Assembly (NCBI RefSeq): GCF_010993705.1 | Contig: NZ_WOFO01000003.1 | Span: 62,001 to 126,000, forward strand | Reading direction: 5' to 3' | Length of the DNA: 64,000 nucleotides | DNA from: Cyclobacterium sp. SYSU L10401 | GTDB taxonomy: Bacteria; Bacteroidota; Bacteroidia; Cytophagales; Cyclobacteriaceae | Part shown: in pieces, positions 2,419 to 43,722 of the stretch | How the letters are laid out: each line of letters begins with the position of its first letter | How positions within the stretch are numbered: the stretch's first letter is position 1 | Program-made: the position numbers and the translations under genes | The notes under the pieces: generated by a model | What the model was told of the DNA's origin: nothing | Seen by the model: only the letters and a program-made list of their open reading frames with translations | Database searches by the model: none

Positions 2419-4320
2419 ATGCATATCCGGATTCGTTTGAGAATGGCTGTCCTGTTGAAATTGTTTCACTTGTTGGTCTTTCTTTTGGTGGCTGCCCTGG
2501 GGTTTGGTCAGCGCATTTCCGGAGAGGCTACATTACGGATAGATGACAATTGGAATGAGCGGATATATGCCATAGATCAACTCGAATTTTTTGAAGATTC
2601 CAGTAATAGCCTGATGTTTGAGGACATCATTAAAGCCCCTTTTCAGCAAAATTTTAAAATCAATGCCAATTTCAGCAAAAACGATTTCAATACCGCCTAT
2701 ACCTATTGGGTAAAACTTTCTATTGCCAATACCCCTGATAGTGATAAAAAATGGTTGTTGGAGTTTTATGATCAAAGCATTGATAAAATCGAAGCCTATT
2801 TTCCGGATGAAGACGGGGTTTACCAGCGCCGTTTTATGGGGGACAATTTTCCTTTCAGCAATCGGCTTTTCAACCATAAAAACTTCCAACTTGAAATCCC
2901 CAACGACCAGGACAGAATTGAGAATTTCTATTTTAAAATTAATTCAAGCCAGAAGGCCGATATCCGCATAGCCGTCCGCTCACTAGATCGGTTTATTCAT
3001 TATGCCTTAAGTGAATATTTTCTATTTGGACTGTTTTACGGAATGATCCTGATCATAGCCTTTTATAATTTTCTGATTTTTTTGGCGGTGAGGGAAATGA
3101 AATATATTTATTACATATTATATATTTTGAGTGTGGGTTTGTATGCCATGAGTTTGGACGGCATCGGTTTTCAATATTTCTGGCCCCAGTTGCCGGAATT
3201 AAATTTTATTGTTAATGGAGTATTTAGTTTTTTCATCATATTCTGGGCTGTCCTGTTTACCATTCGATTTTTGAATACCCGAAGGAGAGCGAAGAAATTT
3301 CACTATTTGCTTTGGTTTTCCCTGTTTTTTAAGTCCTTGATATTTTTAACAGGCTTGTTGTTTGACAAATCTTATTTTGAAATTTCCTACTATGACTTGC
3401 TTCCCTTCTTACTGATTTTTTCGTCTGGGATTTACTTGCTGCTTAAAAACTTTCAGGCTGCCCGTTTTTTTGTTATGGCATATGGGGTTTTGTTTACAGG
3501 GGTTTTCATCAAGGTTTTAGCCAGTTATGCCATTATTCCACACCATACCATTATTTATTACAGCCTGCACTTTGCATTTCTGATCGAAATGGTCCTGTTG
3601 TCTTTTGCCCTGGGAGACCGGATCCGGATCATGAAGGAAATTCGGGACAAAGCACTGAGACGTTCTTTGTCCCAATACAAGGAAAATATTGCCCTGAAGG
3701 AAAGGGTCAACCTGGAATTGGAGACAAAAGTAAGGTGCAGGACAACAGAATTGGAGGAAAAAAACCGCTTGTTGGAACAATATAACCAACAATTACAGGA
3801 AAAGGATGAGGAGATCAAAAGAATCAATAACCTGTTGGATAAAGACAATTGGAAGTTGAAAAGCTCCATTCGTGATTCCTACAAGGCCCGGATATCACAA
3901 CAATCCCTCTCAAGGGAAGAATTTGCCAATATTTTCCCTGACCAATCAGCCTGCTACCGATACCTGGAAGACCTGAAGTGGGGAAGGGGATTTTCCTGCA
4001 GACAATGTGGAAAATCTAAGTTTGGGAAGGGACCCAAATGGTTTTCGCGAAGATGCTCACATTGTGGTCATATTGATTCGGTAACGGCAGGTACCATTTT
4101 TCACGGTATAAAGTTTCCCCTGGAAAAGGCTTTTTATATCCTTTATGCCTCATTCATGGTTAAGGAAAAGATAACACTGGATGAATTATCAGCAAGCCTG
4201 AATTTAAGTCGCAATACCATTTGGGCCTTTCGGAAGAAGGTAAATCAAAAGGTATTGGCTGCGGGGGATGGGCAGCCCAGTTGGGAAGAAATGATTCTCC
4301 TGTATCCTTTGCCGAGCTGA
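2419..4320 (+). CDS. 7TMR-DISM receptor fused to a transposase-type zinc ribbon and HTH
   Basis: A 633-residue protein. Residues 1-31 form a signal peptide. Residues about 40-185 resemble the 7TMR-DISMED2 extracellular domain, a jelly-roll predicted to bind carbohydrate. About 195-400 hold seven hydrophobic helices (7TMR-DISM_7TM). About 405-475 form a charged coiled coil. The C-terminus is not a kinase or cyclase but a zinc ribbon with C527-x2-C530 and C546-x2-C549, the VTAGTIF motif at 555-561, and a helix-turn-helix near 585-608 (LSASLNLSRNTIW). This matches the N-terminal DNA-binding part of IS1595-family transposases (PF12760). No DDE catalytic domain follows. I infer a membrane-tethered DNA-binding receptor. 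It ends 306 bases before susC on the same strand, making it a candidate regulator of that locus. Confidence 0.85.
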   Translation: MHIRIRLRMAVLLKLFHLLVFLLVAALGFGQRISGEATLRIDDNWNERIYAIDQLEFFEDSSNSLMFEDIIKAPFQQNFKINANFSKNDFNTAYTYWVKLSIANTPDSDKKWLLEFYDQSIDKIEAYFPDEDGVYQRRFMGDNFPFSNRLFNHKNFQLEIPNDQDRIENFYFKINSSQKADIRIAVRSLDRFIHYALSEYFLFGLFYGMILIIAFYNFLIFLAVREMKYIYYILYILSVGLYAMSLDGIGFQYFWPQLPELNFIVNGVFSFFIIFWAVLFTIRFLNTRRRAKKFHYLLWFSLFFKSLIFLTGLLFDKSYFEISYYDLLPFLLIFSSGIYLLLKNFQAARFFVMAYGVLFTGVFIKVLASYAIIPHHTIIYYSLHFAFLIEMVLLSFALGDRIRIMKEIRDKALRRSLSQYKENIALKERVNLELETKVRCRTTELEEKNRLLEQYNQQLQEKDEEIKRINNLLDKDNWKLKSSIRDSYKARISQQSLSREEFANIFPDQSACYRYLEDLKWGRGFSCRQCGKSKFGKGPKWFSRRCSHCGHIDSVTAGTIFHGIKFPLEKAFYILYASFMVKEKITLDELSASLNLSRNTIWAFRKKVNQKVLAAGDGQPSWEEMILLYPLPS

Positions 4321-4626
4321 TTTTGACCATCGGAATTCTGGAGTAAGCCTGTGATAAAATTTTCCATTCCCAGGAAGATATAGGGGTGATAAATACCTTG
4401 GATAAAAAAAATTAAGATATCGGTTTAAAGCATATTCAGGCATAAATTGGTGTTATTGATCTGTGAATTACCCTACCGAATAACCGTAACAATCAGTCAC
4501 TATTTCCAACATTTTTTAACCTGCATCAGTTGTTTTTCTGACTTTAGACTACCTTTTCAGTATAAACAATCTTAAACCAAATTGTTTACTACTTAAATAT
4601 TAAATACTACCTAATTTAACTTATTT
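4321..4626. other. Leader region upstream of susC
   Basis: A 306-base gap between the 7TM receptor and susC. It is AT-rich towards the right end, with one promoter-like pair listed separately. No terminator after the receptor gene and no ORF of interest were seen, so read-through from the receptor into susC is not excluded. Confidence 0.5.
4530..4557 (+). promoter_or_regulatory. Candidate susC promoter
   Basis: TTG at 4530-4532, a 17-base spacer and TACCTTTT at 4550-4557 approximate the Bacteroidota TTTG/TAnnTTTG promoter, with the last base differing. It is 69 bases before the susC ATG. Motif-based only. Confidence 0.35.
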
Positions 4627-7600
4627 ATGAGAATTCCTTTTACTTTCGACAAGGGATATTTTAAGCCCAAAATCCCGAGCAGATGGGGCTGGTTCCCGGG
4701 CTTTTTTGTTCTGATGATAGGCCTCGCCTGTTCCAACGCCATGGCCCAACAGCTTACTGTATCTGGAAATGTTACAGATCCTACAGGAGAATCAGTTCCG
4801 GGAGTTAATATTCTGGAGAAAAATACCAGCAATGGTACCGTCTCAGATATGGACGGCAATTATGAATTATCAGTAGCTTCATCGGATGCGATCCTGGTTT
4901 TTTCCTTTATTGGCTTTGAAACCCAGGAAGTGGAGGTAAATGGCCGAAGCCAGATTGATGTTGTTTTTACCGAAGACTCTCAAAACCTGGAGGAGGTAGT
5001 GGTAGTTGGTTATGGTACCCAGCGGGAAAAGGACCTGACCTCTGCCATTTCGACCATCAAATCTGATGACATTATCAAAACTCCCAACTCGCAAGCCATG
5101 CAAGCCCTTCAGGGCCGGGTGGCCGGAGTACAGATTGTGAGTAATGGGGCACCAGGAGCATCTCCCACGGTGCGGGTAAGAGGCGTAGGCTCATTTGAAG
5201 GTGGTGCGGCTCCGCTTTATGTAGTAGACGGCATGTTTTTTGAAAATATTGATTTCCTTAATCCTAATGACATAGAAACCATTTCTGTTTTGAAAGACGC
5301 CTCTGCCTCAGCCATTTATGGCGTAAGGGCGGCCAACGGCGTAGTAGTGATCGAAACCAAATCCGGTAGCTATAATCAGGAGCCGGAAATCGTATACGAT
5401 GGATACTATGGCATTCAAAACCCACAAAATATTTTAAAAATGGCCAATACCCAACAGTTTGTGGGGTATATCAATGAAACCGGTTCTACTCCGGATATGG
5501 CATTCGTACAAAATGCCATCCAGCGCTACGGCAGAAGCCGGATTGATCCCAGCCTGCCGGACGTAAATACAGACTGGTATGCAGAAATGATGCAGCCAGC
5601 AACCATTCAAAACCATACCCTTTCTTTTAATGGAGGGAGTGACCGAACCCGGTATTCCGTTGGAGGCAGCTATTTTGATCAGCAGGGTTTGATGAAGGAT
5701 ACCCGAAACAGCTACAAGCGGATGAACTTCAGGGTCAAATTGGATTCAGACCTGAGGGATTGGATCAGTGTGGGAGGTAATTTGAATATCAGCACCGGAG
5801 AGCAGTACAATGGGGACAATGGGGCCTGGTTCCGCTCCTACTTTGCAGTACCGATTATTCCGGTAAACGATGAGCAAAATACGGATGCCCAACCTTACCA
5901 ACTTTCCAATGCCCAGCAAATTGGTTACAGGGGCAATCAAAACCCGTTTTATAGCCTTTTGTATTCGGATAATAAAAATAAAATAGCCAAAATTCTGGGT
6001 AACTTTTATGCGGAGTTGGAGATCATACCCAACAACCTGACCTTTAAAACTTCCTATAATTACAACCTGGAAAGTGTGACCAGCAGAAACGTAGGCTTTG
6101 CCTATAATGACGGGATCACTGAGAGGCAATCTTCCATCAACAGAAGAACATTTAATCGTTTTGATCAGATCTGGGATAATTTCCTTACTTACCAAAACAA
6201 CTTTGATCGGCATAATCTCACGGTTGTTTTGGGGCAATCCTACCGAAGTGAAACCAATGAATCCCTTTTTGCCAGGGGCGAAAATATCAACCCCAATCCG
6301 GACAGAGAGGAAGAACAATTCTGGTACCTGAATAACTCGACCGATTTTGACCTGAATGGTATCGGAGATGGCGGTTCACGTTTGTTTTTTCAGTCCTACT
6401 TTTCCCGTGTGGCCTACAATTATGATGACCGTTACCTATTATACGGAACGTTCAGAAGGGACGGAAACAATAAATTCCAAAACAAATGGGGTAATTTTGC
6501 CACTATTGGGGCAGGATGGGTGCTTACAGAAGAAGCATTCTTTAATGTGGATGCGATTAATTTCCTGAAAATTCGCGGTTCATGGGGTGAATTGGGTAAT
6601 GATGGCATCAGTCCATCCGTAGGCGCACCGGTATTGGTAGAAACCAATGCAGCCATTGATGGGGTGCTGGTGATTGGTCGTCGCCTGGATCCGACCTTTG
6701 ATTTGATTGAGCAATGGGAAACCACTGTGGAGCGGAATTTTGGATTGAATGCCCGCCTGTTCAGGGAAAGACTTTCTCTTGAAGCAGATTACTTCATCCG
6801 GGATACCCGAAACCTGGCGGTAAGCATCATACCTCCGGTAATCCGTGCTAGCGAAAGGCGAAGTGTAGGGGAAATCCGCAACCAGGGATTGGAAGTGTCT
6901 GCCAACTGGGAGGACAACCTGTCCACCAATTTTTCCTATTATGTTGGAGGTAATTTTGGTACCCTGGAGAATACAGTTTTAGGGCTGGGCGGGGCAGAAG
7001 GTCTGGATGCAGGCTCGGCCGAATTCAGACAGCGGTCCATTATTGGACAGCCCTACCAGGCTTTCTTTGGCTATGAAACAGATGGCGTCTTTCAATCTCA
7101 GGAACAAATCAATTCTTACGGTTACAGCCAGGACTTTATCAATGACAACAACCTGCAACCCGGAGACCTGATATTCAGGGATCAGAATGAAGACGGTATC
7201 ATTAATGATCAGGATCGGGTAGTGCTGGGTTCGTTTTTACCCAGCCTGACCTATGGTTTCAATGCTGGGTTTAGGTATAGAAACCTGGACTTTTCTGCAC
7301 TGTTTCAAGGTCAGTCCGGCTATAAAATACTGAACAGAAAACGGGGAGAAATCATATTCACCAATGATACCAATTTGGATGCAGAACTTGCCGATAATCT
7401 CTGGAGGGAAGAAGGCACATCCAACCGGTACCCTTCTGCAGCAGGCTTGAGGAAAGGCTGGAACCAAAATCTCAGCAATTATTTTGTAGAGGACGGTTCG
7501 TATTTCCGGATTCAAAATGTGAGGCTTTCCTATACCCTTTCAGACCGGGAGATTTTTGGATCAAAAATGCCCGAAACCAGGTTCACCCTTACGGCTGAAC

Positions 7601-7716
7601 GACCACTTACGATGTTTAATTATAATGGTTTTAATCCTGAAGTGGCCAATGGCATCGACCGCCAGGTATATCCTATCCCGGCCATTTATACCGTTGGGTT
7701 AAACATTAAACTTTAA
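4627..7716 (+). CDS. susC: SusC/RagA-family TonB-linked outer-membrane transporter
   Basis: A 1029-residue TonB-dependent importer of glycan fragments. It has a signal peptide ending near A40 (NAMA), a carboxypeptidase-regulatory-like domain at about 43-118, the hallmark EEVVVVGYGTQ linker at 122-132, a plug domain to about residue 250 (LYVVDG and SASAIYG motifs), and a long beta-barrel ending in LNIKL. Length is normal for the family. The matching SusD gene starts 12 bases after its stop, so the two form the usual outer-membrane 'pedal-bin' complex. The two glucanase lipoproteins downstream suggest a glucan or related substrate. No frameshift is visible. Confidence 0.97.
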   Translation: MRIPFTFDKGYFKPKIPSRWGWFPGFFVLMIGLACSNAMAQQLTVSGNVTDPTGESVPGVNILEKNTSNGTVSDMDGNYELSVASSDAILVFSFIGFETQEVEVNGRSQIDVVFTEDSQNLEEVVVVGYGTQREKDLTSAISTIKSDDIIKTPNSQAMQALQGRVAGVQIVSNGAPGASPTVRVRGVGSFEGGAAPLYVVDGMFFENIDFLNPNDIETISVLKDASASAIYGVRAANGVVVIETKSGSYNQEPEIVYDGYYGIQNPQNILKMANTQQFVGYINETGSTPDMAFVQNAIQRYGRSRIDPSLPDVNTDWYAEMMQPATIQNHTLSFNGGSDRTRYSVGGSYFDQQGLMKDTRNSYKRMNFRVKLDSDLRDWISVGGNLNISTGEQYNGDNGAWFRSYFAVPIIPVNDEQNTDAQPYQLSNAQQIGYRGNQNPFYSLLYSDNKNKIAKILGNFYAELEIIPNNLTFKTSYNYNLESVTSRNVGFAYNDGITERQSSINRRTFNRFDQIWDNFLTYQNNFDRHNLTVVLGQSYRSETNESLFARGENINPNPDREEEQFWYLNNSTDFDLNGIGDGGSRLFFQSYFSRVAYNYDDRYLLYGTFRRDGNNKFQNKWGNFATIGAGWVLTEEAFFNVDAINFLKIRGSWGELGNDGISPSVGAPVLVETNAAIDGVLVIGRRLDPTFDLIEQWETTVERNFGLNARLFRERLSLEADYFIRDTRNLAVSIIPPVIRASERRSVGEIRNQGLEVSANWEDNLSTNFSYYVGGNFGTLENTVLGLGGAEGLDAGSAEFRQRSIIGQPYQAFFGYETDGVFQSQEQINSYGYSQDFINDNNLQPGDLIFRDQNEDGIINDQDRVVLGSFLPSLTYGFNAGFRYRNLDFSALFQGQSGYKILNRKRGEIIFTNDTNLDAELADNLWREEGTSNRYPSAAGLRKGWNQNLSNYFVEDGSYFRIQNVRLSYTLSDREIFGSKMPETRFTLTAERPLTMFNYNGFNPEVANGIDRQVYPIPAIYTVGLNIKL

Positions 7717-7728
7717 AATAAGACAAAC

Positions 7729-9267
7729 ATGAATACCTATAAATATATTTCCGTTTTGTTTTTGGCCATTTCAGCCATCCTAATGGGACTGTCTTGTACA
7801 GAAGTGCTGGATGAGCCTTTGGAGAATGAATTCATTGCCGAGGATACCGACTATTCTCAATCTGAAAACATGGTTTTGCTGCTTTATGGCGCTTATGCTG
7901 AATTGTATAGTTTGCAATGGGAGACCTTCCCGCTGATAAGTGTGAGGGGCGATGATGTGAATGCTGCGGGTGATCAGTTTCCATTGACCGAGACAGATGA
8001 ATTTCGCTATGACAGGAATTTCTGGATGTACAATTCTACCTGGCTCAACCTGTATTCTGATCTCTTGTACTGGCATGGAGCCATGGAGGAAATAGAGAAA
8101 TACCAGGAAGCAGGAGCCAGCGAAGCCAATGCCAGACAATACATCGCAGAAATAAAGGTCATGAGAGCATTTGAATTGATGTACCTGGCCAGATTATGGG
8201 GATCAGTACTTATTCCCAATGCTTCGGAGCCCAGCCATTTGTTTAATGTGGAATTGTCTGACTATGAAACAGTGATGCAGCATATTTCCATGGAAATGGA
8301 TGCAGCCATCCCCGACCTGCCGAGCGTGCATCCCAATCAAAGATCTGACGTAAAGGGAGGGGTGACAAGGTACTCGGCTTTGGCTATCAAAGCCAGGTCC
8401 AATATGGAGCTAAACAATCACACAGCTGTGGTGGCCGCTACAGATGAAATCATTGAAAGTGGTTTGTTTGCCCTGGAGTCCGATTTTTACCAGCTATTTA
8501 AAATCCCAGGCAAGCTGAATGATGAAAATTTGCTGGAGTTGCAATATTCCGATTTTGGTCAGGCCAGCGGAACGCGCACCCGCTATCTCTGGGATTTTTT
8601 CGGTCCTGCCAGTTGGACTCCCACCGTTTCGGGAGCAGGAGGAGGTTGGGGCTTTTTTGAACCATCTCAAAAATATGTGAAGTTCATGTTGGATAGGAAT
8701 GAGGAGGAACGACTGACTACCTCGGTGCTGTTTACCCCTGATGGTATAGCTGAAATCCAATCCGATGCCGCCTACCAGAATTTACCGGATTGGGTATCCA
8801 ACGTCAGTCCCGACGGAGATGTTTTTAACAACCACCCACGGTATAACTTCCTTAGCGGGAAGCACTACCTGCCATCTACCCAATTGACACCGGGTAGGTT
8901 TACCTACGGGGAAAATAAAAACTTTACTTGTATCCGGTATGCCGAAGTATTGCTTTTACATGCGGAGGCCCTGGTCAACGGAGCCAGTAGCCAGGTCTTA
9001 TCAGCAGAGGAAGCTGTAAACCAGGTGAGGGCAAGGGCTGGATTGAATAACCTTAGCACGGTGGACCTGGATGCGGTATTGGATGAGAAATATGCCGAAT
9101 TTGCCATGGAATGGGGAATTAGGTATTTTGACCTGATCAGGTATGACCGTACTTCAGAGTTGAATTATGGTGGAAGGACCTTTAGTGAAGGAGATCGGTA
9201 TCTCCCTTACCCGCTCGAACAGCAGGATATTTTACCCCAAATCCGGGAGGCAGCAAATGAAGAATGA
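7729..9267 (+). CDS. susD: SusD/RagB-family glycan-binding lipoprotein
   Basis: A 512-residue surface lipoprotein with a lipobox LSC (C23). The SusD-like body includes the C-terminal KNFTCIRYAEVLLLHAEA-type segment and the MEWGIRYFDLIRYDR segment that end RagB/SusD proteins. SusD caps the SusC channel and binds the oligosaccharide before import. It follows susC by 12 bases and is probably on the same transcript. The downstream LamG lipoprotein gene could start inside its last codons (ATG 9257) or just after it (ATG 9293). Confidence 0.96.
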   Translation: MNTYKYISVLFLAISAILMGLSCTEVLDEPLENEFIAEDTDYSQSENMVLLLYGAYAELYSLQWETFPLISVRGDDVNAAGDQFPLTETDEFRYDRNFWMYNSTWLNLYSDLLYWHGAMEEIEKYQEAGASEANARQYIAEIKVMRAFELMYLARLWGSVLIPNASEPSHLFNVELSDYETVMQHISMEMDAAIPDLPSVHPNQRSDVKGGVTRYSALAIKARSNMELNNHTAVVAATDEIIESGLFALESDFYQLFKIPGKLNDENLLELQYSDFGQASGTRTRYLWDFFGPASWTPTVSGAGGGWGFFEPSQKYVKFMLDRNEEERLTTSVLFTPDGIAEIQSDAAYQNLPDWVSNVSPDGDVFNNHPRYNFLSGKHYLPSTQLTPGRFTYGENKNFTCIRYAEVLLLHAEALVNGASSQVLSAEEAVNQVRARAGLNNLSTVDLDAVLDEKYAEFAMEWGIRYFDLIRYDRTSELNYGGRTFSEGDRYLPYPLEQQDILPQIREAANEE

Positions 9268-9292
9268 ATTGAAACATAAAACATATTCCAAC

Positions 9293-10378
9293 ATGACACA
9301 TAAATGGATCAGCCTGGTGGTGGTATTGGCTCTTGGACTCACTGCCTGTACCGATGGCTATATTGATGATATTGAGTTTGTTGAACCGGGAGCAGATAAT
9401 GAATCCCCGGAAATTACCGTAAATTATCCTACCGACGGTACCCAGATACGGGTTACAGAGGAGGTTACCTCCATAGAAATCGACCTTGAAGTCGAAGACG
9501 ATATAGAAATTGAGTCCGTGGTGGTGGAATTGGATGGACAGGAAATCGCCCGGTTTGAGGATTTCAAAGATTACCGGAGGTTTTTGAATACCTTTAGTTA
9601 TGACAACCTGACCAATGGAGAGCATCAGCTGGAAGTCATTGCCCGGGATCTTTCGGGGAAGGAGACCACAACTGCTGTGGTATTTGAAAAAATAGAACCC
9701 TATCAACCCATCTATGAAAATGAAGTGTTTTATCTGCCATTTGATGGGGACTATACGGAATTGGTACGCATCCAGAATGCCAATGTATCCGGTTCGCCGG
9801 GTTTTACGAGCGGTATTTCGGGCAGGGCTTATTCCGGCAGTCCGGATGCCTACCTTACTTATGAGGCAGAAAACCTTCAAACGGAGGAATTTAGTGCGGT
9901 TTTTTGGTACAAATTGGATGGTACACCAGACCGGGCCGGGCTGTTGGTGATGGGGCCTCCCGATGAGGCCAATCCAACAGCCATGAATAACAGGACTTCC
10001 GGATTCAGACTTTTCAGGGAAAATGCCGGAGGGATGCAGCGGTTTAAACTGAATGTGGGCAATGGTTCCGGGGAAAACTGGTTTGACGGGGGGGCAGCAG
10101 CCGATATTGATCCGGCGATAGATGCCTGGAATCACATCGCCTTTACCATCGCCTCAGAGGAGTGTACGGTTTATATCAATGGTGAAGTGGTCAGTCAGGG
10201 CAGCTTTCCGGGAATCGACTGGTCTGGATGTGATATACTTTCGGTGGCCTCTGGTGCCCCCCGCTTTGCCGGATGGGGCCATTTGTCCACCTCAAGTGAG
10301 ATGGATGAGTTAAGAATTTTTGACCGGGCCATCAGCCAATCAGAAATTCAATCCTTAATGATGGAAGAAGCCAACTGA
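9293..10378 (+). CDS. LamG/concanavalin-fold surface lipoprotein of the Sus locus
   Basis: 361 residues from ATG 9293, which places the lipobox LTAC (C19) correctly. An alternative ATG at 9257 overlaps susD and has GGGAGG upstream, but would lengthen the region before the signal core by 12 residues. After the lipid anchor come an Ig-like domain (about 35-130, ending ...GEHQLEVIARDLSGKE) and a LamG/concanavalin-A-like domain (about 138-355, ending MDELRIFDRAIS). This fits a SusE/SusF-position surface glycan-binding protein that helps capture substrate. No catalytic motif is visible. It is followed by an intrinsic terminator. Confidence 0.85.
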   Translation: MTHKWISLVVVLALGLTACTDGYIDDIEFVEPGADNESPEITVNYPTDGTQIRVTEEVTSIEIDLEVEDDIEIESVVVELDGQEIARFEDFKDYRRFLNTFSYDNLTNGEHQLEVIARDLSGKETTTAVVFEKIEPYQPIYENEVFYLPFDGDYTELVRIQNANVSGSPGFTSGISGRAYSGSPDAYLTYEAENLQTEEFSAVFWYKLDGTPDRAGLLVMGPPDEANPTAMNNRTSGFRLFRENAGGMQRFKLNVGNGSGENWFDGGAAADIDPAIDAWNHIAFTIASEECTVYINGEVVSQGSFPGIDWSGCDILSVASGAPRFAGWGHLSTSSEMDELRIFDRAISQSEIQSLMMEEAN

Positions 10379-10400: not shown

Positions 10401-10431
10401 CAGCAGAAGGGATTCCTTCTGCTGTTTTTTT
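10401..10431 (+). terminator. Intrinsic terminator between binding and enzyme genes of the locus
   Basis: A perfect 10-bp stem (CAGCAGAAGG / CCTTCTGCTG) with loop GATT is followed by seven T. It lies 22 bases after the LamG gene, and only three bases separate its T-run from the ATG of the first glucanase gene at 10435. Confidence 0.9.
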
Positions 10432-10434
10432 ACC

Positions 10435-12402
10435 ATGAAACATCAGATCCTTATCCTATTATCAGGTTTAATTTTTTGTTGCTGTCATCAGGAAGAGACG
10501 GATGGGCCTGCTTTGGAATTGAGCAGCCTGACCATAGGAGAGCTGGAAGTTCCGGGGAATGAGCCCCTGACAGACGTTCCTTTGGATCAGCCCATTCACC
10601 TTCATTTCACCATTCCCCTTTCATCAAATTCCGTTTCCGGAAACCTGGAGTTAACAGATATGGATTCCGGTGATGAAGTACCATTTAATACCAATTTTCT
10701 GAATGAACGCCGGACCATCAGGTTGCTCCCGGTAGGACTGCTGAAACAGGGCACTACCTACAAGCTGCAAATCCATTCAGGATTAACCGGTGAGAATGGA
10801 CAGACTTACCCGGGTAGCGAGTGGGTATTTACTACCCTCTTAGGGTCTGTTTCGGTGCAGTCTTTTAGCCTTCTGGGGGCAGATCACCTTGGTGCCAGGC
10901 ACTGGGTAGGAGCAAGACGGGATTTTCAACTGGACCTTCATTTTTCCAGTAAGGTAGTATTGCGGGAGGAATCTATCCGGCTGGAGGAAAAGGGAGAAGG
11001 CGAGCTCCCTGTAAAGGTAAGCCATGTAAAGGATTCAGTGCATTACCAAATTCAGTCCTCGGCCCCCTTAAATGGTTTGAGACAGTTTACTTTTTCTTTT
11101 GCTGCCGCTCAGGGTTTCCAGAGTGAGATTGAAGTAGAAGGATTTGAACTCATTTTTTATTCCGAGGGCACAGATGAACCGAAGTTCCCGTTGCTGGATG
11201 AAAATACCCTGCTGGATAAGGTTCAATCTCAGACCTTTCGGTATTTCTGGGACTTTGCCCATCCCCAGAGTGGCATGGCCAGGGAAAGAAGCAGCTCAGG
11301 AGATCTGGTAACCACCGGTGGTTCCGGCTTTGGGCTCATGGCCCTTGTGGTCGGCATGGAGAGGGGCTATATCAGTCGGAAACAGGGAACTGACAGGCTA
11401 TCCAAAATACTGAATTTCCTTCAGCAGGCGGATCGTTTTCATGGAGTCTGGCCCCATTGGCTGAATGGCAATACCGGAAAGACCATTCCTTTCAGTAGTC
11501 TGGACAATGGAGGTGACCTGGTGGAAACAGCCTTGTTAATGCAAGGCCTATTGACTGTGCGCAGCTATCTGGATAGCAGCCAGGCCGGGGAGAAAATACT
11601 TCGGGATCAAATTACTCAGCTTTGGGAGGAAGTAGAATGGGATTGGTATACCAGGGGAGGGCAGAACCAACTATTCTGGCATTGGTCAGCAGACCTGGGT
11701 TGGGCCATGAACCTGCCTGTTTCGGGATATAACGAAGCTTTGATTGTCTATGTACTGGCAGCTGCCTCCCCAACCTATCCGATAGAGGCAGCAGTCTATC
11801 ACGAAGGTTGGGCCAGGAATGGAGCCATACAAAATGGACAATCCTACAACGGATTCGTCCTTCCTCTCGGACAGGAAAGGGGGGGACCCCTGTTTTTTGC
11901 CCATTATTCTTTTTTAGGGCTGGATCCCAGAAATTTGGTGGACCGCTACGCCAATTATTGGGAACAAAACCGAAGGCATAGCCTGATCAACAGGGCCCAT
12001 TGCATCCAAAATCCCCTTTCCTATGTTGGGTACGGGGAGCAGTCCTGGGGTTTAACGGCAAGTGATAATCCGGATGGCTATGCTGCGCACTCACCTACCC
12101 GGGACCTGGGCGTGATTACCCCAACAGCGGCCCTGTCTTCAATGCCCTATACCCCAGAGGAATCAATGGAAGCCCTGGAGTTTTTTTATTATCAACTGGG
12201 GGACAGGCTCTGGGGAGAAATGGGCTTTTTGGATGCATTTGATCTTACCAGTCAGTGGTTTGCAACCGATTTCCTGGCCATAGATCAGGGACCAATTTTG
12301 TTAATGATTGAGAATTACCGTACAGGTTTGCTTTGGAATCATTTTATGCAAAATGAAGAAATAGATTCCGGCCTGGAAAAACTGGAATTTACCTACGAAT
12401 AA
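10435..12402 (+). CDS. Glucoamylase-like (PF10091/GH144-type) lipoprotein with Ig domain
   Basis: A 655-residue lipoprotein; the signal ends in a CCC cluster (C15-C17), any of which could carry the lipid. Residues about 28-135 form an SbsA-type Ig-like domain (ending SEWVFTT). The catalytic (alpha/alpha)6 domain spans about 255-640, with FRYFWDFAHP, SGMARERS, TTGGSGFGLMAL and LSSMPYTPEES motifs. These mark the PF10091 family, whose characterised members include GH144 endo-beta-1,2-glucanases. Substrate is inferred, not proven. It is about 45% identical by eye in its catalytic part to the next gene. The start codon lies three bases after a terminator, so its expression depends on read-through or an unseen promoter. 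Confidence 0.85.
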   Translation: MKHQILILLSGLIFCCCHQEETDGPALELSSLTIGELEVPGNEPLTDVPLDQPIHLHFTIPLSSNSVSGNLELTDMDSGDEVPFNTNFLNERRTIRLLPVGLLKQGTTYKLQIHSGLTGENGQTYPGSEWVFTTLLGSVSVQSFSLLGADHLGARHWVGARRDFQLDLHFSSKVVLREESIRLEEKGEGELPVKVSHVKDSVHYQIQSSAPLNGLRQFTFSFAAAQGFQSEIEVEGFELIFYSEGTDEPKFPLLDENTLLDKVQSQTFRYFWDFAHPQSGMARERSSSGDLVTTGGSGFGLMALVVGMERGYISRKQGTDRLSKILNFLQQADRFHGVWPHWLNGNTGKTIPFSSLDNGGDLVETALLMQGLLTVRSYLDSSQAGEKILRDQITQLWEEVEWDWYTRGGQNQLFWHWSADLGWAMNLPVSGYNEALIVYVLAAASPTYPIEAAVYHEGWARNGAIQNGQSYNGFVLPLGQERGGPLFFAHYSFLGLDPRNLVDRYANYWEQNRRHSLINRAHCIQNPLSYVGYGEQSWGLTASDNPDGYAAHSPTRDLGVITPTAALSSMPYTPEESMEALEFFYYQLGDRLWGEMGFLDAFDLTSQWFATDFLAIDQGPILLMIENYRTGLLWNHFMQNEEIDSGLEKLEFTYE

Positions 12403-12418
12403 CTCTAAATGCTGAATC

Positions 12419-13996
12419 ATGAAATTACTTACCTATTGCTCGATATTGATCCTGTTGTTAAATGGGTATTCCTGCATGCAAAAATCTGGTACCGGCAAAG
12501 GAATTGAAACAAAGGCATATGACCGGCACGTGGAATTGAGTTGGCATCCTGAGGCAGGGGCTGAGAAATACACCGTGTACGTCAGGAAGGAAGATGGGAA
12601 CTATTCCAGGCGAGCCGAATTGACCGACACCCTATACCTGGACTTTGTAAATGATTTGGGAAAAAATCTGGGTTTGCATTATAAAATTGAAGCCCAGATG
12701 GAGGAAGGCACGCACCTCATCGGAGAGGCAGCGGTAGAAACTCGGACCATGAGTGAGGAGGAGTTGTTGGACATGGTTCAATATTATACTTTCCGCTATT
12801 TTTGGGAGGGGGCTGAACCTAATTCCGGCATGGCCCGGGAGAGAATTCATATGGACGGAGTATATCCGCAAAATGACCAACAGGTGGTCACCACGGGAGG
12901 TACCGGCTTTGGACTCTTTGCCTTGCTTGCCGGCTTGGACCGGGAGTGGATCAGTAAAGAAGAAGGTTTGGCCCGGTTTGAAAAGATAGTGGATTTTTTG
13001 GCCAATGCTGACCGGTTTCACGGTATATGGTCCCATTGGATTAATGGAGAGACTGGCAAAGTCAAACCCTTCGGACAGGATGATGATGGGGCAGATCTGG
13101 TCGAATCTGCTTTTTTGATGCAAGGTTTGCTTGCTGTAAGGGAATATTACCGGGAGGGCAGTGAGAGGGAGCAAAGCCTGGCTGACAAAATTGATGTCTT
13201 GTGGAAGGAAATGGAATGGGACTGGCACACCCAGGGAGGGCAAGATGTATTGTATTGGCATTGGTCTCCCAATTTTGGCTGGCAAAAGGACTTCGCTATC
13301 CGGGGCTATGATGAATGTCTGATCACCTATGTGCTGGCAGCTTCTTCCCCAACCCATGCCGTTTCGGAGCAGGTGTATCACCAGGGATGGGCACGTGGGG
13401 GAGCTATTCAAAACAAGGGTGCAGCTTATGGTTATGCCCTTCCCCTGGTACACAATGGGTCTCCGGAATACGGAGGTCCTTTGTTTTGGGCACATTATTC
13501 CTATCTGGGCTTGAACCCAAAAGGATTAAAAGATAACTATGCGGATTATTGGGAGCATAACCGTAACCACAGCCTGATCAACCGGCAGTGGTGCCTGGAG
13601 AATGAAGCTGGGTTTAAAGGTTATGGAGAGGATTTATGGGGGCTTACTGCCAGTTATTCCACCAATGGCTATGCTGCGCACCGGCCAGGAAATGATAGGG
13701 GAGTCATATCACCCACTGCCGCCCTTTCATCTATGCCCTATACCCCTGAAGAAAGCAAAAAAGTCCTGAAAAACCTTTATTACAATTATGGAGAAAAAAC
13801 CTTTGGCCGGTATGGGTTTTATGATGCCCTGAGTCCTGAAGAGGGCTGGTATCCCAAAAGGTACCTGGCCATAGATCAGGGCCCCATTGTTGCCATGATT
13901 GAAAATTATCGCTCCGGTTTGGGCTGGAATTTGTTTATGCAGGCGCCCGAAGTTCAGGAGGGCTTGAAAAAACTGGGCTTTGTCACGTCAGATTAA
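12419..13996 (+). CDS. Second glucoamylase-like (PF10091/GH144-type) lipoprotein
   Basis: A 525-residue lipoprotein with lipobox GYSC (C19), an FN3-like domain at about 30-105 and a PF10091/GH144-type catalytic domain at about 115-520. It shares FRYFWEGAEP, SGMARERI, TTGGTGFGLFAL, RFHGIWSHW and AIDQGPI with its neighbour, so the pair looks like a tandem duplication with different N-terminal modules. It starts 16 bases after the first copy. Both probably act at the cell surface or in the periplasm on glycan handled by SusCD. Endo- versus exo-action cannot be told from sequence. Confidence 0.87.
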   Translation: MKLLTYCSILILLLNGYSCMQKSGTGKGIETKAYDRHVELSWHPEAGAEKYTVYVRKEDGNYSRRAELTDTLYLDFVNDLGKNLGLHYKIEAQMEEGTHLIGEAAVETRTMSEEELLDMVQYYTFRYFWEGAEPNSGMARERIHMDGVYPQNDQQVVTTGGTGFGLFALLAGLDREWISKEEGLARFEKIVDFLANADRFHGIWSHWINGETGKVKPFGQDDDGADLVESAFLMQGLLAVREYYREGSEREQSLADKIDVLWKEMEWDWHTQGGQDVLYWHWSPNFGWQKDFAIRGYDECLITYVLAASSPTHAVSEQVYHQGWARGGAIQNKGAAYGYALPLVHNGSPEYGGPLFWAHYSYLGLNPKGLKDNYADYWEHNRNHSLINRQWCLENEAGFKGYGEDLWGLTASYSTNGYAAHRPGNDRGVISPTAALSSMPYTPEESKKVLKNLYYNYGEKTFGRYGFYDALSPEEGWYPKRYLAIDQGPIVAMIENYRSGLGWNLFMQAPEVQEGLKKLGFVTSD

Positions 13997-14234: not shown

Positions 14235-15725
14235 TTGTTCCATATAGTTAGCTTTATCCGTTTGACACCAACTTCCAAACCTACATTTCTGGCCTCCCTG
14301 CTGGCTTGCCTGATTTTTTTGCTGATGGCATTCAGTTTTCCGGTAGGATTTAAAGCATGGATAGAGGAAGCCGCAAGCTTTACCCTGGATTATTTTGGTA
14401 CCTATTACCTTTACCTGGGCTTGCTAATGGTTTTGGCTTTGATGGGTATCGCTGTATCTCCCCTGGGGAAATACAAATTGGGTGAAGGGCCGGTGGCCTA
14501 TGGCTGGTTCTCATGGGCAGCCATGCTCTACAGCACAGGAATGGGTGCCGGGCTGATGTTAAGAGCCATTCAGGAACCAGTATTTTACTATACTCAAGCC
14601 CCTAGGGCTTCTGCACTTTCCCCGGAAATATTTGCTTTGGAATATACTTTTTTCCATTGGGGGCTGACGCCCTGGGCATTTTATGGCATGTTTGGCCTGA
14701 TCATAGGGTTTCTTGTATATGGAAAGGGAAGGTTGATGCTCAGTTCTTCTGTATTGCATGGGAAATACCACCGACCCTGGTTGATTGTACCCATTGATGT
14801 GATCACCATCATCAGCACCTTGTTTGGAGTGGTAGGGGCCGTGGGATTGGGTAGCAGGCAATTGCTGGCAGGATTCAGAGAACTCTTTGGTATGCTGGAT
14901 GTCAATTACACCAATAATGCATATGTAGTGGTTTTTCTTGGATCTCTGGCCACGCTTTCAGCTTTTACCGGATTGAGCAATGGGATCCGCAATTTATCCC
15001 GATTCAATATTCTCCTGGCCTTGTTTTTAATGGTCTTTACCTGGTTGGCAGGAGATGTGTTGGGTGTATTTGGTAACTTTTATGCGGCCCTTGCAAGCTA
15101 TCTGAAGGACTTTCTTCCTATGAGTATTAATTTTGGCGCCATGAAAGTCGCACAGGACTTTCTGATGGACTGGACTTTTTTTTATTGGGCATTCTGGCTT
15201 TCCTGGGCTCCCTTTACAGGGGTTTTCATTGCCAGAATTTCAAAGGGCAGAAGCTTTCGTGAATTTATCTTTGGCGTTTTACTGGTGCCTTCTCTGGGAA
15301 CATTTTTCTGGTTTACGGTTTTCGGCACCCAGGCTTTTGAATTGATTGGTAACCCGGAAGCTTATGAAGGGCAGTTTGATTCCCTTTACGGGTCCATCTT
15401 TGTTTTCTTTGATAGTCTGCCACAGGCAGGATTAATTAAATTGCTGGGCTTGATCCTGGTGTTTACCTTTCTGATTACATCCATAGATTCTGCCATTTAT
15501 GTGCTGGGGATTTTTGCCGATAATGGAAACATGGAACCCAAAAGGAGAAACCTGCTGGGTTGGGGGGTGATCCTAGTACTGTTTACCGTGGCTACCATTT
15601 TTGTTGGCAAGGAGCAGTTGTTGGAATCCATTAGCCAAATGCTGGTATTGATGGCTTTGCCATTTAGTTGGGTTTACCTGCTGATGATCAGCAGTTTTCT
15701 TTTTATCTTGTTTCAAAAAAAGTAG
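14235..15725 (+). CDS. BCCT-family transporter
   Basis: About 496 residues and about twelve membrane helices. The TM8 signature WTFFYWAFWLSWAPFTGVFIARIS is characteristic of betaine/carnitine/choline transporters and carries the aromatic substrate box; GMGAGLM in an earlier helix matches the glycine-rich substrate motif. Such carriers move trimethylammonium compounds by Na+ or H+ symport or exchange. It lacks the long N- and C-terminal extensions of osmosensing BetP. No in-frame ATG occurs before the first helix; the frame is open from 14139 and the usable starts are TTG 14235 or TTG 14262. It meets the next gene with a 1-base gap. Confidence 0.9.
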   Translation: MFHIVSFIRLTPTSKPTFLASLLACLIFLLMAFSFPVGFKAWIEEAASFTLDYFGTYYLYLGLLMVLALMGIAVSPLGKYKLGEGPVAYGWFSWAAMLYSTGMGAGLMLRAIQEPVFYYTQAPRASALSPEIFALEYTFFHWGLTPWAFYGMFGLIIGFLVYGKGRLMLSSSVLHGKYHRPWLIVPIDVITIISTLFGVVGAVGLGSRQLLAGFRELFGMLDVNYTNNAYVVVFLGSLATLSAFTGLSNGIRNLSRFNILLALFLMVFTWLAGDVLGVFGNFYAALASYLKDFLPMSINFGAMKVAQDFLMDWTFFYWAFWLSWAPFTGVFIARISKGRSFREFIFGVLLVPSLGTFFWFTVFGTQAFELIGNPEAYEGQFDSLYGSIFVFFDSLPQAGLIKLLGLILVFTFLITSIDSAIYVLGIFADNGNMEPKRRNLLGWGVILVLFTVATIFVGKEQLLESISQMLVLMALPFSWVYLLMISSFLFILFQKK

Positions 15726-15726
15726 C

Positions 15727-16773
15727 ATGCCTGTACGGATGAATGGTATAGTGGCCATAGGGATACTTGTAATGGGTATTTCCTGTGACTCAATTATAAA
15801 TGAAAAACACCTGGCCCGCTATGAAGGAGACAGGCATCGAGGTGTGTGTTGGGTTGGCAGCAGGGAGCCATTGCAGGGCGGGGAGATGATAAAGTTGTCC
15901 AGGACAGGTGCCAGTCACATTTCCCAAACCCCGTTTGGTTGGCAGGCCCATACGACAGATCCATCCATCAGGTGGGAAACCCATTCCGATAAAATGTGGT
16001 GGGGTGAGAGCAGTGATGGCCTTAATACCACCATTGACACAGCCCAATCACTGGGACTTACAAGCATTTTAAAACCCCACCTATGGGTAAGGGGATCCTG
16101 GCCCGGAGAAATTTCCATGAATAATGAGTCGGATTGGAAGAAATGGTTTGGGCAGTATAAGGCTTTCATCGTTTATTATGCCAGACTTGCTGAAGAAAGA
16201 AAACTTCCCTTGCTGTGTATAGGTACAGAGTTGGAGAAAACCAGTGAACGGGAAAATGACTGGCGGGAGATTATCACCGCTGTTAAGGAGGTTTATTCCG
16301 GAAAACTGACCTATGCTGCAAATTTCACGGAGTATGAATCGGTAAAGTTTTGGGATGCCCTGGACTATATCGGCATTCAGGCTTATTTTCCACTTTCAGT
16401 AGGTGAAGATCCTACCTTGAATCAATTGCGACAGGGCTGGGAAAAAATTTTACCCAAGCTGGAGAAAATAAACCACCTTTACCAAAAACCAATTTTATTT
16501 ACCGAGTTGGGTTATTGTAACACCCTCGATGCGGCAGATTCTCCCTGGGTTTGGCCCCGGGAAAGGAAAAATGCCATATTGTCTGAGGAAATGCAGGCCC
16601 GATGCTATACCGCATTTTTTGAATCTGTCTGGCACCAACCTTGGTTTCAGGGCGTTTATTTTTGGAAATGGTATCCTGAATCCAGGAATGCCAGCCCTGA
16701 TTTTACCCCACAAAATAGATTGGCAGAACAAGTCATGCAAAGGTATTTTTTACAGCCAATTCCCGGAGGATAA
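15727..16773 (+). CDS. GH113-like TIM-barrel glycoside hydrolase lipoprotein
   Basis: A 348-residue lipoprotein (lipobox MGISC); the ATG at 15727 or the internal ATG at 15739 could be the start. The fold motifs, SLGLTSILKPHLWV, IGTELE with E168 as likely acid/base, GIQAYFPLS, and FTELGYC with E260 as likely nucleophile, match GH113 and related clan GH-A enzymes, whose known members include beta-mannanases. Substrate is uncertain. It follows the BCCT gene after one base, so they are co-transcribed and perhaps translationally coupled. It may extend the glycan-degrading set of the upstream Sus locus. Confidence 0.75.
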   Translation: MPVRMNGIVAIGILVMGISCDSIINEKHLARYEGDRHRGVCWVGSREPLQGGEMIKLSRTGASHISQTPFGWQAHTTDPSIRWETHSDKMWWGESSDGLNTTIDTAQSLGLTSILKPHLWVRGSWPGEISMNNESDWKKWFGQYKAFIVYYARLAEERKLPLLCIGTELEKTSERENDWREIITAVKEVYSGKLTYAANFTEYESVKFWDALDYIGIQAYFPLSVGEDPTLNQLRQGWEKILPKLEKINHLYQKPILFTELGYCNTLDAADSPWVWPRERKNAILSEEMQARCYTAFFESVWHQPWFQGVYFWKWYPESRNASPDFTPQNRLAEQVMQRYFLQPIPGG

Positions 16774-32232: not shown

Positions 32233-34737
32233 TTATTTTTTGGTGGTAATTAAAATCACACCGTTTTTGGCTTTTTCCCCGTACAAATTGACCTGATTAC
32301 TCTTCAAAACTGAAACGGATTCAATGTTTTCCGGTTTGGTTTGGCTTAGGAAATGCTGATCAGTTTGAATCACACCATCCAGGATGTATAAAGGATCCTT
32401 GGTGGAATCAATTGTTTCAGACTGTTGGGGCTCAGCATAACTTATTTTATTCATCCCATTTTCCTTCAAGGCCTTTTGGACTTCTTGTACAGTTCCCATT
32501 TTCACCCCTTCAGAGGCATAAAAGACAACTTCTACCTTTTCCGGTTCCCATTGATGGTACCTGATCATACTGGCGATAACTTGGGTAAGTCCGATATTCA
32601 AGGGAAGCGTAACCCCATTAAAATTGATATAGTCTTTATTGATGATCCTCAGGGGAAGCTTTTGGGTCAAAGGCGGAAGTTCGGGTCTGAATTTACTTTT
32701 GCCACCACCCATGTAGCCGTTTACGGTAACCTCCTCTCCATACTTTTCCTTTTGGGACGGAGGAAGGGACTGTTCTTTCCCACGAAGCTGGAAAGTAACC
32801 GGCAACAAGACCAGGTATTCATTTTTGGATTTGACAGGTTCCAATGCAGGCAAATCTTTCAGCACCTCAAGCAGGATGTCCTGGGTGGCCGGTGATGGGC
32901 TTTCTAGTATATGATAGTCGGTTACCTTTCCCGTCTTATCTGCTCTTAGTTGAACCAAAACAGTGCCTATGTGATCGGTGTTGCTATCCCCAAAGGGAAA
33001 AGTAAGATGCTGTGCCAGGTATTTCATGGCAGCTTGACCCATGGCGATGGCCCCTGATTTCAAGTCGTTTGTATCCTTGCTTGCCATACTACCGTCCAGG
33101 AAAAAACTATTGGAAAGAAGGTTTCTTGTATTAAAGCTGGTGGTCGCAGGCAACTTCTGGGGCTTTGAGGCAGGTGTTGTGGTTGGGTGATTTGCCACGT
33201 GTCTGACAGTTTGGGTAGGGGAAACATACAGGTGGGTATGGACTACTACCGCCACAGATTCCCCATTATGCTGACCGGGATTCCATTGGGGGGCATGCTC
33301 GCTTTCTAAAGCCGTCAGTAGTTGTTGGTCTATAGGTTCAATCAAGCTTTTCTTAATGACGGGGTGCGTGATTTTACCTTCCTGGTCAACGATAAATTCC
33401 AGTACTACAGGTCCTGATGCTGCCTGAGATTGATGCTGCTGCCGGGGAATTTGAAGTTGCAGGTAATTGTACCAGCTTTCCCAACCTGTCGATGGCTCAG
33501 GTCTTTTTTCCACTTCATCGAAAGCATGTGCATTTTCATACTTTTTTACCAGGGTGGAATTATTTCTTAAAGATTCAATTAATTGCAGTATCCTTTGATA
33601 GTCGCTTTCATTATGTATTCCTGTAAATTCATAGGAGAGTTCTCCTAATTGGGCAACCAGCTGCTGGTTATCCAATATGCCAATGCTTTCGTAATGGATG
33701 GGGTTTTTTAGATTTTTAATCTTGATACCAACCTGAATGGAATCCTGGGCAGCCAATATCTGGTTCTTTAAAAATTGCATTGGTTGGGTTTTTACCTGAT
33801 TGAGCAGGGTAATTCCCTTGTTGGTTTTCATGGATACCAATCCAAAAAGCATGAGCATCAATGGGAGCAGCATGAGCAATTTTAACCGATTGATTTTATG
33901 GGGTTTTTTCATCATCATGATTCTCTTTAAAGTTGTAGAACGGATAAAGTAATTGCCAATTGGCAGGTCTATTCCCTTAAAAGCCATTTTTACCAATAAT
34001 CTGGGATATGATTCCTTATTGACTGTTTCTTTCAATACCCTTGCATCTGCCTGATATTCATGTAAGTCTATCAGGGCAAACCGCATTAAATGTATCATGG
34101 GGTTAAACCAAACCAGGATGCTGAGAAATTGATAATAAAGCACATCATAGGTGTGCTTTTGTTTGACATGTTCCAGCTCATGTTGTATGATTTGTGTTTT
34201 TTCCTTCTCACTCAGGTGTTCATTTTCATCCCAAAAAATCTTATCAAAAAAGGAAAAGACTGGAGCCATACCAAAGGTAGGTACCTTAAAGTAATTGTCT
34301 TTTAAAATATATTTGGTTTGATACCACCCTTTTTCCAATAATAGTCTCAACTGAAAATATTGCCAGATCAAGTTGGATAATAAAGCTAATAAAACGATAA
34401 GATATCCAAATAGGAGGTAATCTGTTATTTCCCAAAGTAAAGGCAATTTACTTCCGGTAACGGTAACTTCAGGAAGCCCAAAGGTACCGATGATCTCCTT
34501 ATTTTGATCAGTTTGTATAGCTTTTAAAAACGCAGTATTCTCAAGAGAAATGCTTGGTTTATCAAAAGGCACCTGGATTTTTACCAAAGGAAAAGCTAAG
34601 GCTAAGAGCGGACTGAGCAATAAATAAAACCGGTTTAATAAAAACGTCTTTTCATTTTTTAGGAATACCCAGTACAACCCGTAGAAAAAAGCGAGACAAA
34701 ATGTACTTTGCCAGATGTAATTGATCAAATTGGCCAT
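32233..34737 (-). CDS. M56 (BlaR1-like) membrane peptidase with TonB and plug modules
   Basis: An 834-residue membrane protein. The N-terminal half has membrane helices and a zinc-peptidase site H186-E187-x-x-H190 (HELEH) plus LHEYQAD, as in BlaR1/MecR1 sensors. A fourth helix lies near residue 290. Then come two TonB C-terminal-like regions (about 420-510 and 570-660) and a TonB-receptor plug-like end (about 780-834, DPLYILDGVI ... YGEKAKNGVILITTKK). In Bacteroidota such proteins usually sit beside a BlaI/MecI repressor; none is seen here within the 656-base upstream gap. Role in signalling or envelope stress is inferred. Confidence 0.88.
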   Translation of the reverse strand: MANLINYIWQSTFCLAFFYGLYWVFLKNEKTFLLNRFYLLLSPLLALAFPLVKIQVPFDKPSISLENTAFLKAIQTDQNKEIIGTFGLPEVTVTGSKLPLLWEITDYLLFGYLIVLLALLSNLIWQYFQLRLLLEKGWYQTKYILKDNYFKVPTFGMAPVFSFFDKIFWDENEHLSEKEKTQIIQHELEHVKQKHTYDVLYYQFLSILVWFNPMIHLMRFALIDLHEYQADARVLKETVNKESYPRLLVKMAFKGIDLPIGNYFIRSTTLKRIMMMKKPHKINRLKLLMLLPLMLMLFGLVSMKTNKGITLLNQVKTQPMQFLKNQILAAQDSIQVGIKIKNLKNPIHYESIGILDNQQLVAQLGELSYEFTGIHNESDYQRILQLIESLRNNSTLVKKYENAHAFDEVEKRPEPSTGWESWYNYLQLQIPRQQHQSQAASGPVVLEFIVDQEGKITHPVIKKSLIEPIDQQLLTALESEHAPQWNPGQHNGESVAVVVHTHLYVSPTQTVRHVANHPTTTPASKPQKLPATTSFNTRNLLSNSFFLDGSMASKDTNDLKSGAIAMGQAAMKYLAQHLTFPFGDSNTDHIGTVLVQLRADKTGKVTDYHILESPSPATQDILLEVLKDLPALEPVKSKNEYLVLLPVTFQLRGKEQSLPPSQKEKYGEEVTVNGYMGGGKSKFRPELPPLTQKLPLRIINKDYINFNGVTLPLNIGLTQVIASMIRYHQWEPEKVEVVFYASEGVKMGTVQEVQKALKENGMNKISYAEPQQSETIDSTKDPLYILDGVIQTDQHFLSQTKPENIESVSVLKSNQVNLYGEKAKNGVILITTKK

Positions 34738-35904: not shown

Positions 35905-35978
35905 TACACCCGGAAGGATTCGAACCCTCAACCCTCGGAGCCGAAATCCGATATTCTATCCAGTTGAACTACGGGTGC
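35905..35978 (-). tRNA. tRNA-Arg (anticodon TCG)
   Basis: A 74-base cloverleaf on the minus strand. The acceptor arms GCACCCG / CGGGTGT pair (first pair G-U), and the anticodon stem TCGGA/TCCGA encloses loop TTTCGGC with anticodon TCG at 35942-35944. The T-arm GAGGG-TTCGAAT-CCTTC is intact. CCA is not encoded. It lies 37 bases downstream of sucC on the same strand and 1 base from the bidirectional terminator. Confidence 0.95.
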
Positions 35979-43673: not shown

Positions 43674-43722
43674 AGTCAATTGGTTTTGTACCCATATCCT
43701 GAAAAACCCTGTGGTAGTAGGA

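Follow-up and report, generated by a model that had tools for sequence, protein, structure and literature searches.

A seven-transmembrane receptor with an IS1595-type DNA-binding tail, a candidate regulator of the adjacent susC-susD locus in Cyclobacterium

A 64,000-nucleotide stretch of the Cyclobacterium sp. SYSU L10401 genome (here called the window) contains a susC-susD polysaccharide locus (PUL) that is directly preceded by a gene encoding a membrane receptor. According to a 2024 review (PMC10766802), the control of CAZyme genes commonly relies on just three systems (i.e., HTCS, ECF sigma/anti-sigma factors, and catabolite repression). The initial annotation had reported no HTCS, ECF sigma/anti-sigma, or AraC gene near the locus, and we likewise found none among the PUL genes and ten other window proteins scanned with Pfam (the 12 kb upstream of the window was read by eye). 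One TetR gene (42975 to 43679) was among the scanned window proteins. A lone receiver-domain protein (419 to 799) and a BNR_4 protein precede the receptor (419 to 2321), and this order is kept in all six loci of the genus that hold upstream sequence (L031 to L036; loci are given L numbers). On the basis of predicted domains, gene neighborhood, and leader sequences, we consider it likely that the receptor itself regulates the PUL beside it, acting as a one-component transcription regulator tethered to the membrane.

Domain architecture of the receptor

The receptor gene (7TMZ; 2419 to 4320, + strand) is a single intact frame of 633 codons from ATG to stop. The initial annotation had described its 633-aa product as one uninterrupted chain joining a DISMED2-like sensor, seven membrane helices, a coiled coil, a zinc ribbon with four cysteines, and an HTH; this description was confirmed, with the HTH seen in the structural model and matched weakly by the Pfam HTH models. 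The extracytoplasmic DISMED2 sensor (residues 54 to 186; 2578 to 2976, +) and the 7TMR-DISM membrane domain (residues 199 to 401; 3013 to 3621, +) score well above the cutoffs of PF07696 (103.2 bits; cutoff, 22) and PF07695 (145.7 bits; cutoff, 29), and the AlphaFold model of the full receptor (pLDDT, 87.3; pTM, 0.67) contains the seven helices. The sensor fold resembles the RetS periplasmic domain (Foldseek; 2xbz, E = 2.8e-5; 3jyb, E = 5.4e-5). A continuous helix (residues 382 to 492) runs out of TM7 and leaves the membrane in the model; its continuation past the membrane domain is the signaling-helix/coiled-coil linker (residues 402 to 492; 3622 to 3894, +), in which N431, L434, R441, and T442 are invariant among 22 aligned relatives (i.e., 22 of the 25 complete members from the 59-genome survey described below).

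Past residue 401, PF12760 (Zn_ribbon_IS1595) alone exceeds its cutoff. The C-terminal search against this model, proposed in the initial annotation, gave 27.5 bits (cutoff, 25.4) for an IS1595 transposase zinc ribbon at residues 507 to 551 (3937 to 4071, +), and its cysteines (C527, C530, C546, and C549) are invariant in 22/22 and 69/69 aligned relatives (one further alignment contained these 69 sequences, and another contained 64). An HTH-like three-helix unit (residues 568 to 614; 4120 to 4260, +) lies directly past the VTAGTIF motif. In the model, the zinc ribbon strands and three HTH-like helices (568 to 579, 587 to 594, and 598 to 614) form a separate compact tail, which reached a pLDDT of 89.1 when modeled alone, whereas the HTH_11 and HTH_24 models match the tail weakly and below cutoff. 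Foldseek returned no structural relative of the tail in the PDB at E of ≤0.001.

The Pfam scan of the receptor revealed no enzymatic output (i.e., kinase, cyclase, phosphatase, or GGDEF) after residue 401, and no histidine kinase, receiver, or AraC domain; the window receptor also has no Pfam match to a Reg_prop/Y_Y_Y ectodomain (some HTCS have other sensors). Because the match to the NF033547 transposase model covers positions 3 to 49 of 215 and stays far under its cutoff (14.6 bits; cutoff, 75), the catalytic part of the transposase is absent from the tail. Domain models and predicted structure together indicate that a sensor, a membrane span, and a DNA-binding-type domain are combined in one chain.

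Linkage to susC, distribution, and origin of the tail

In the window, a gap of 306 bp separates the receptor gene from susC (4627 to 7716, +; Plug and CarbopepD_reg_2), which is followed by susD (7729 to 9267, +; SusD_RagB), a gene for a Laminin_G_3/Big_7 protein (9167 to 10378, +; the true start may be further in), and two genes for PF10091 hydrolases (10435 to 12402 and 12419 to 13996, both +). Since both hydrolases match an endo-beta-1,2-glucanase (PDB 5gzh; E = 1.1e-154 and 1.2e-189, respectively), the substrate of this PUL is probably beta-1,2-glucan. A BCCT-family transporter and a GH113-like hydrolase are encoded past the PF10091 genes on the same strand (14235 to 16773) and may share the locus. 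Elsewhere in the window (32236 to 34737), an 834-aa protein combines an M56 BlaR1-type peptidase, TonB_C, and a partial Plug domain.

The placement immediately upstream of susC, noted in the initial annotation, recurs in relatives. Among the best 80 orthologue loci by search (from Cyclobacterium, Algoriphagus, Echinicola, Fulvivirga, Roseivirga, Marivirga, Chitinophaga, and others), 79 have a frame of at least 590 aa, all 79 with a CxxC-CxxC pattern near the end. The next same-strand gene is susC in 68 of the 80 loci, at gaps of 157 to 532 bp (median, 260 bp), and the common content behind susC-susD is a LamG protein and PF10091 hydrolases. The other 12 loci have a different same-strand gene (8 loci), an opposite-strand gene (2 loci), or no further gene in the contig (2 loci); susC is found further on in L063, L065, and L120 and is divergent in L123. 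SusC searches gave at least 36 to 44 matches in each of 13 genomes, and chance adjacency of the receptor and susC should amount to a few percent at most. Within the genus Cyclobacterium, the receptor is present in 8 of 12 genomes, and the susD of this PUL occurs in exactly the same 8. One orthologue locus (L130) shows the usual susC-susD-LamG-PF10091 order, yet its MAG is labeled Rickettsiales and is probably mislabeled or a mixed bin.

We also picked 40 further loci by hand from the matches listed for the transposase query described below (at most three per genome), one of which (L243) was dropped since it has no zinc pattern. In 22 of the 39 analyzable loci susC is the next gene, and in 17 it is not. 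The few PUL proteins scanned in these loci include GH3 (L209 and L244), GH16 (L211 and L214), SusE (L237), and PKD proteins (L205, L209, and L214). Around 25 loci chosen largely for susC not being next, the neighbors comprise GH3 (6 of 88 proteins), GH10 (4), GH9 (2), sulfatases (2), esterases (2), and many unrelated proteins (Pfam scans covered 88 of 94 neighbor proteins in one set and 72 of 73 in another).

A frameshift or assembly join between the two halves, the weak point named in the initial annotation, is refuted by the occurrence of matches to the receptor in 24 of 59 sampled genomes (the window genome included) at E of ≤1e-60; among the 27 places listed in this survey, L026 has no tail and L027 is cut by a contig end. 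The Cytophagales survey that the annotation had called for found the architecture in many genera, with 129 of 390 genomes of the order matching a coiled-coil-plus-tail query at E of ≤1e-30. Some genomes have seven such matches, and a few matches may be transposases or fragments because nine frames among those listed fall short of 600 aa. With a transposase as the query, 113 of 291 genomes of the order matched at E of ≤1e-20, and most of the matches listed end near transposase residue 125, inside open frames of about 600 to 790 aa. The family is sparse phylum-wide, i.e., 11 of 395 genomes (the window genome included) and 8 of 171 genera at E of ≤1e-50, with the top three candidates per genome scored. 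A PF12760 search over 39 relatives gave 37 matches (15 in frames of >600 aa and 22 in frames of ≤314 aa), and all 15 in the long frames are places of the E ≤1e-60 survey.

The genome itself encodes an IS1595 transposase (L002) that has the same succession of zinc ribbon and HTH region and is 43% identical to the receptor over the tail, together with two further 7TM proteins whose tails read as histidine kinases. In a tree of 76 tails, built from few columns and with few transposases, a single branch separates all 65 fused tails from the 11 transposases (support, 93/90; 94% of bootstrap trees). This one-sided arrangement fits a single capture of a transposase head, and the kinship of the tail to IS1595 transposases, on which the proposal of a transposon DNA-binding head captured as a sensor output was founded, holds. 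A related transposase in the same genome is also what might be expected if the tail were a functionless remnant of a transposon, or the gene an assembly artifact, but a fusion that is open and conserved across many genera, with invariant zinc cysteines and a one-sided tree, leaves this explanation practically no probability. The conservation in relatives and the invariant cysteines led us to reject both an artifact and a lone fusion.

Nearly all of the members examined sense through DISMED2-7TM. In four proteins from two genomes, the same tail stands behind a propeller ectodomain (L238 in G600; L239, L305, and L306 in G518, a fragmented assembly with 7% contamination). Reg_prop and Y_Y_Y domains were confirmed by Pfam in L238 and L239 and recognized by motif count and reading in L305 and L306. 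L238 adjoins susC-susD directly upstream, whereas L239 does not.

A shared motif in the susC leaders

The receptor-susC leaders share a conserved motif, TGTTTTTaAAGCGtaAAA, which in orthologues is mostly present as two direct copies 64 to 66 bp apart; motif models on 69 leaders yield CAATGTTTTTaAAGCGTaAAA. The putative operator copy in the window (proximal site O2; 4445 to 4468, +) is the top PWM match in the 64 kb, at 18.9 bits with the window leader among the training leaders; held-out PWMs score the same site at 13.0 and 11.4, against control maxima of 10.7 and 9.8. The window leader has one clear copy (pair total, 9.1; single site, 12.3). A simple motif pattern in the window alone gave 7 matches versus 6.83 expected, which is not significant. 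The third-best match of the operator model in the window (10417 to 10440; 15.9 bits) extends over the first bases of the PF10091 gene at 10435 and may be due to chance.

The motif distinguishes receptor-linked leaders from other susC leaders. In cross-tests of motif models, 32 of 39 and 19 of 30 leaders scored higher than any of 25 control susC leaders taken from the same genomes (of the initial 30 controls, 2 had no frame, 1 had a weak start, and 2 had a tail upstream, and these were removed). Matches of >12 bits were found in 61 of 69 leaders versus 2 of 48 control leaders. A 24-bp model produced such matches in 62 of 68 leaders (6 were without), and 26 matches outside leaders in loci totaling 1,225,529 bases. 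The motif also occurs just downstream of the receptor in L063, L065, L120, L121, and L093, where susC is not next or the contig ends, while L061, L075, L080, L085, and L123 have no match of >12 bits to the 24-bp model anywhere in the locus. Since the leaders are related by descent, these counts do not represent independent events.

The spacing of the copies is equally characteristic of the orthologues. Copies are most often 65, 66, or 64 bp apart (18, 14, and 10 pairs, respectively), and the next commonest distance occurs twice. Although spacing was not used in training, the best-scoring pair is spaced 64 to 66 bp apart in 53 of 69 leaders; pair scores of >15 at this spacing were found in 43 of 69 leaders versus 0 of 48 controls, and without a score limit it is also the best spacing in 6 of 48 controls. 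In the divergent locus L123, the susC strand carries weak matches (11.0, 9.3, and 8.5), the first and last of which are 66 bp apart, and this is suggestive. A bare pair pattern occurs at 39 places in 8 genomes (control, 18), 8 of which are at a receptor-susC leader, and such a leader is among the places in each of the 8 genomes.

Leaders of nonorthologous members reached scores of ≥11 in 12 of 21 cases versus 1 of 23 controls, the test leaders being more AT-rich than the controls (36.9% versus 43.5% GC). L242, an orthologue, was left out of this comparison, and 7 of 30 controls were dropped (2 with weak starts and 5 with a tail upstream). A post hoc regular expression matched 13 of 21 of these leaders versus 1 of 23 and 0 of 25 controls. 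The copy spacing is scattered in the further leaders, and we therefore claim the two-site geometry for orthologues only.

Two other readings of the motif sequence were rejected. Models of a full palindrome scored lower (335 at width 22 and 407 at width 28) than the direct model (609 at width 20). Derivation of the operator from IS1595 ends was dismissed since the terminal repeats vary from locus to locus and the sequence around them scores at most 8.8 with the operator model (12 loci were examined, 11 had a frame, and about seven had convincing terminal repeats). The IS1595 element of the window genome (L002, 962 to 1928) has 23-bp imperfect inverted repeats flanking its transposase.

Two relatives (L307 and L308) carry the orthologous PUL without the receptor gene and thus offer natural tests. 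The genes before susC in L307 encode an ECF-sigma-like protein (Sigma70_r2 and r4_2 just over cutoff) and FecR; judging from this gene order, the receptor is apparently displaced by an ECF sigma/FecR pair in this one orthologous locus. The susC leader of L307 has no motif match of >9 bits, and the single match in the locus (12.9) lies upstream of the sigma gene. L308 has no ECF sigma/FecR neighbor before susC and no match of >9 bits in its susC leader; its one match (10.2) is within a neighboring open reading frame.

These loci bear on the alternative that the motif belongs to an unlinked regulator or to the basal promoter and that the receptor acts elsewhere or through a partner. The binding of the tail to the motif is a prediction, the motif was derived from leaders of related loci, and some family members have no model-detected motif nearby, all of which such an alternative would accommodate. 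It would not account for the absence of the motif from the susC leaders of both loci without the receptor, its near-absence from control leaders, its recurrence beside divergent members with other PULs, or its presence downstream of the receptor in the five loci named above. A LacI/cre-like palindrome was rejected since it is not clearly enriched in the leaders (6/69 versus 3/48 controls with a strict pattern; 20/69 versus 8/48 with a looser one). We regard this alternative as very improbable.

Downstream of the proximal site, a tentative promoter-like element (TTG-N17-TACCTTTT; 4530 to 4557, +) was recognized by eye upstream of susC. The Bacteroidetes promoter consensus is of the -33/-7 type. 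In orthologue leaders, conserved columns about 103 to 110 bp from the start of the proximal copy fall at roughly the offset of this element. We mark the promoter as tentative because neither a strict regular expression (TTG-N18-23-TAnnTT; 17 scattered matches in 64 leaders) nor a motif search downstream of the proximal site singled one out. The motif search picked instead an AT-rich element (tcGATTT..aAAAaaaTT) about 50 bp downstream of the proximal copy; in 38 of 63 leaders, this element is no more than 3 bp away from its median position.

The position of the motif upstream of this tentative element argues against control at the RNA level, in which the zinc ribbon would bind an element of the 5'-leader RNA. 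When the tail profile was compared with PDB sequences, the best of the weak matches was to the zinc ribbon of a ribosomal protein (S27e; E = 0.014), which would suit an RNA target, but the tail includes the transposase HTH region, and the leader contains no Rfam family (the sole match in the window is a tRNA at 35905 to 35978). RNA binding is, in our estimation, even less probable than an unrelated regulator.

Proposed mechanism and relation to known regulators

We propose that the extracytoplasmic DISMED2 domain acts as the sensor, with an oligosaccharide freed from the polysaccharide (here probably beta-1,2-glucan) as its most likely ligand, and that the seven helices and the coiled coil relay the signal to the zinc-ribbon/HTH head. 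The head, which is probably dimeric and would have been taken over from an IS1595-family transposase, may bind the motif in the susC leader, at a single copy or, in the majority of orthologues, at two. Once bound, it would most likely activate susC-susD together with the genes that follow. A spacing of about six turns between direct repeats suggests that two heads are placed on one face of the DNA.

Activation is somewhat the more probable sign of regulation. The same protein at the same sites could also be a repressor, with the unliganded receptor holding the susC leader at the membrane until the glycan releases it; the sign cannot be read from sequence, and two direct sites 64 to 66 bp (i.e., about six helical turns) apart would also suit looping. 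However, a position well upstream of susC, typically 115 to 250 bp before its start for the proximal site, suits an activator, and the slot of the receptor in L307 is held by an ECF sigma/FecR pair, which is a positive regulatory system. Moreover, HTCS bind DNA while presumably membrane-tethered and are required for the induction of their PULs, according to PMC3404733, which favors activation and also implies that tethering should be no obstacle for the receptor. Repression is therefore unlikely, if less so than the alternatives considered above.

More tentatively, and at somewhat less than even odds, we suggest that a single capture of the head gave rise to a whole class of polysaccharide regulators that use it as their output in Cytophagales and related groups. 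Its members would have swappable sensors of the 7TM or HTCS type and bind paired direct sites about six turns apart, both of which would be held by one membrane complex in the way that a transposase holds its ends.

The receptor resembles HTCS in that an outside sensor and an inside DNA-binding domain are united in one membrane protein beside a PUL, and four of its relatives carry the HTCS-type propeller ectodomain; it differs in having no histidine kinase, receiver, or AraC domain and an IS1595 head as its output. With 7TMR-DISM receptors of the RetS and LadS type, it shares PF07695, PF07696, a coiled-coil linker, and a RetS-like sensor fold. An enzymatic output is usual, though not strictly defining, for such receptors, whereas the output here is a DNA-binding-type domain and no enzyme. 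ECF sigma/FecR-controlled susC systems can occupy the same slot in the orthologous PUL (L307) but comprise two proteins, including a sigma factor, rather than one. IS1595-family transposases, which share the zinc ribbon and HTH region, differ by the catalytic domain that the receptor does not have. TldR proteins are likewise prokaryotic regulators from transposon proteins (i.e., TnpB-derived RNA-guided repressors), but unlike the receptor, they are RNA-guided and soluble and are not known to be fused to a sensor.

ChiS is a chitin regulator, and its DNA-binding domain (DBD) provides a precedent for the fusion. A 7TMR-DISM fused to a C-terminal ChiS DBD is described in PMC8092284, and HTH outputs are stated to occur at low frequency in the signaling-helix paper (PMC1592074); thus, joining a 7TMR-DISM to a DNA-binding domain has, in principle, been seen before. 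The ChiS-family DBD proteins differ from the receptor in being from Proteobacteria and having another HTH variant, and section 10 of that paper mentions no zinc ribbon, susC, or transposase (PMC8092284). Among titles and the beginnings of abstracts, with subscription literature mostly outside the search, we recognized no published account of a 7TMR-DISM combined with an IS1595 tail. If the proposal is true, the receptor represents another control class for SusC/SusD polysaccharide loci, present in many genera of the order and with a testable predicted operator. It would also show that, in bacteria, a transposase domain can be converted into the output of a sensor and then expand and exchange its sensors, and PULs whose control is unknown would gain predicted regulators and sites.

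Two groups of receptors in the tail tree have neighborhoods of their own. L212, L215, L218, and L240 form a tight subclade with a conserved non-susC neighborhood (proteins of about 354, 480, and 174 aa). L047, L216, and L235 form a separate clade; in L047, the receptor gene lies downstream of GH67, SDR, and GH10 genes on its strand, L216 and L235 have genes of similar size there, and this clade is a possible xylan regulator.
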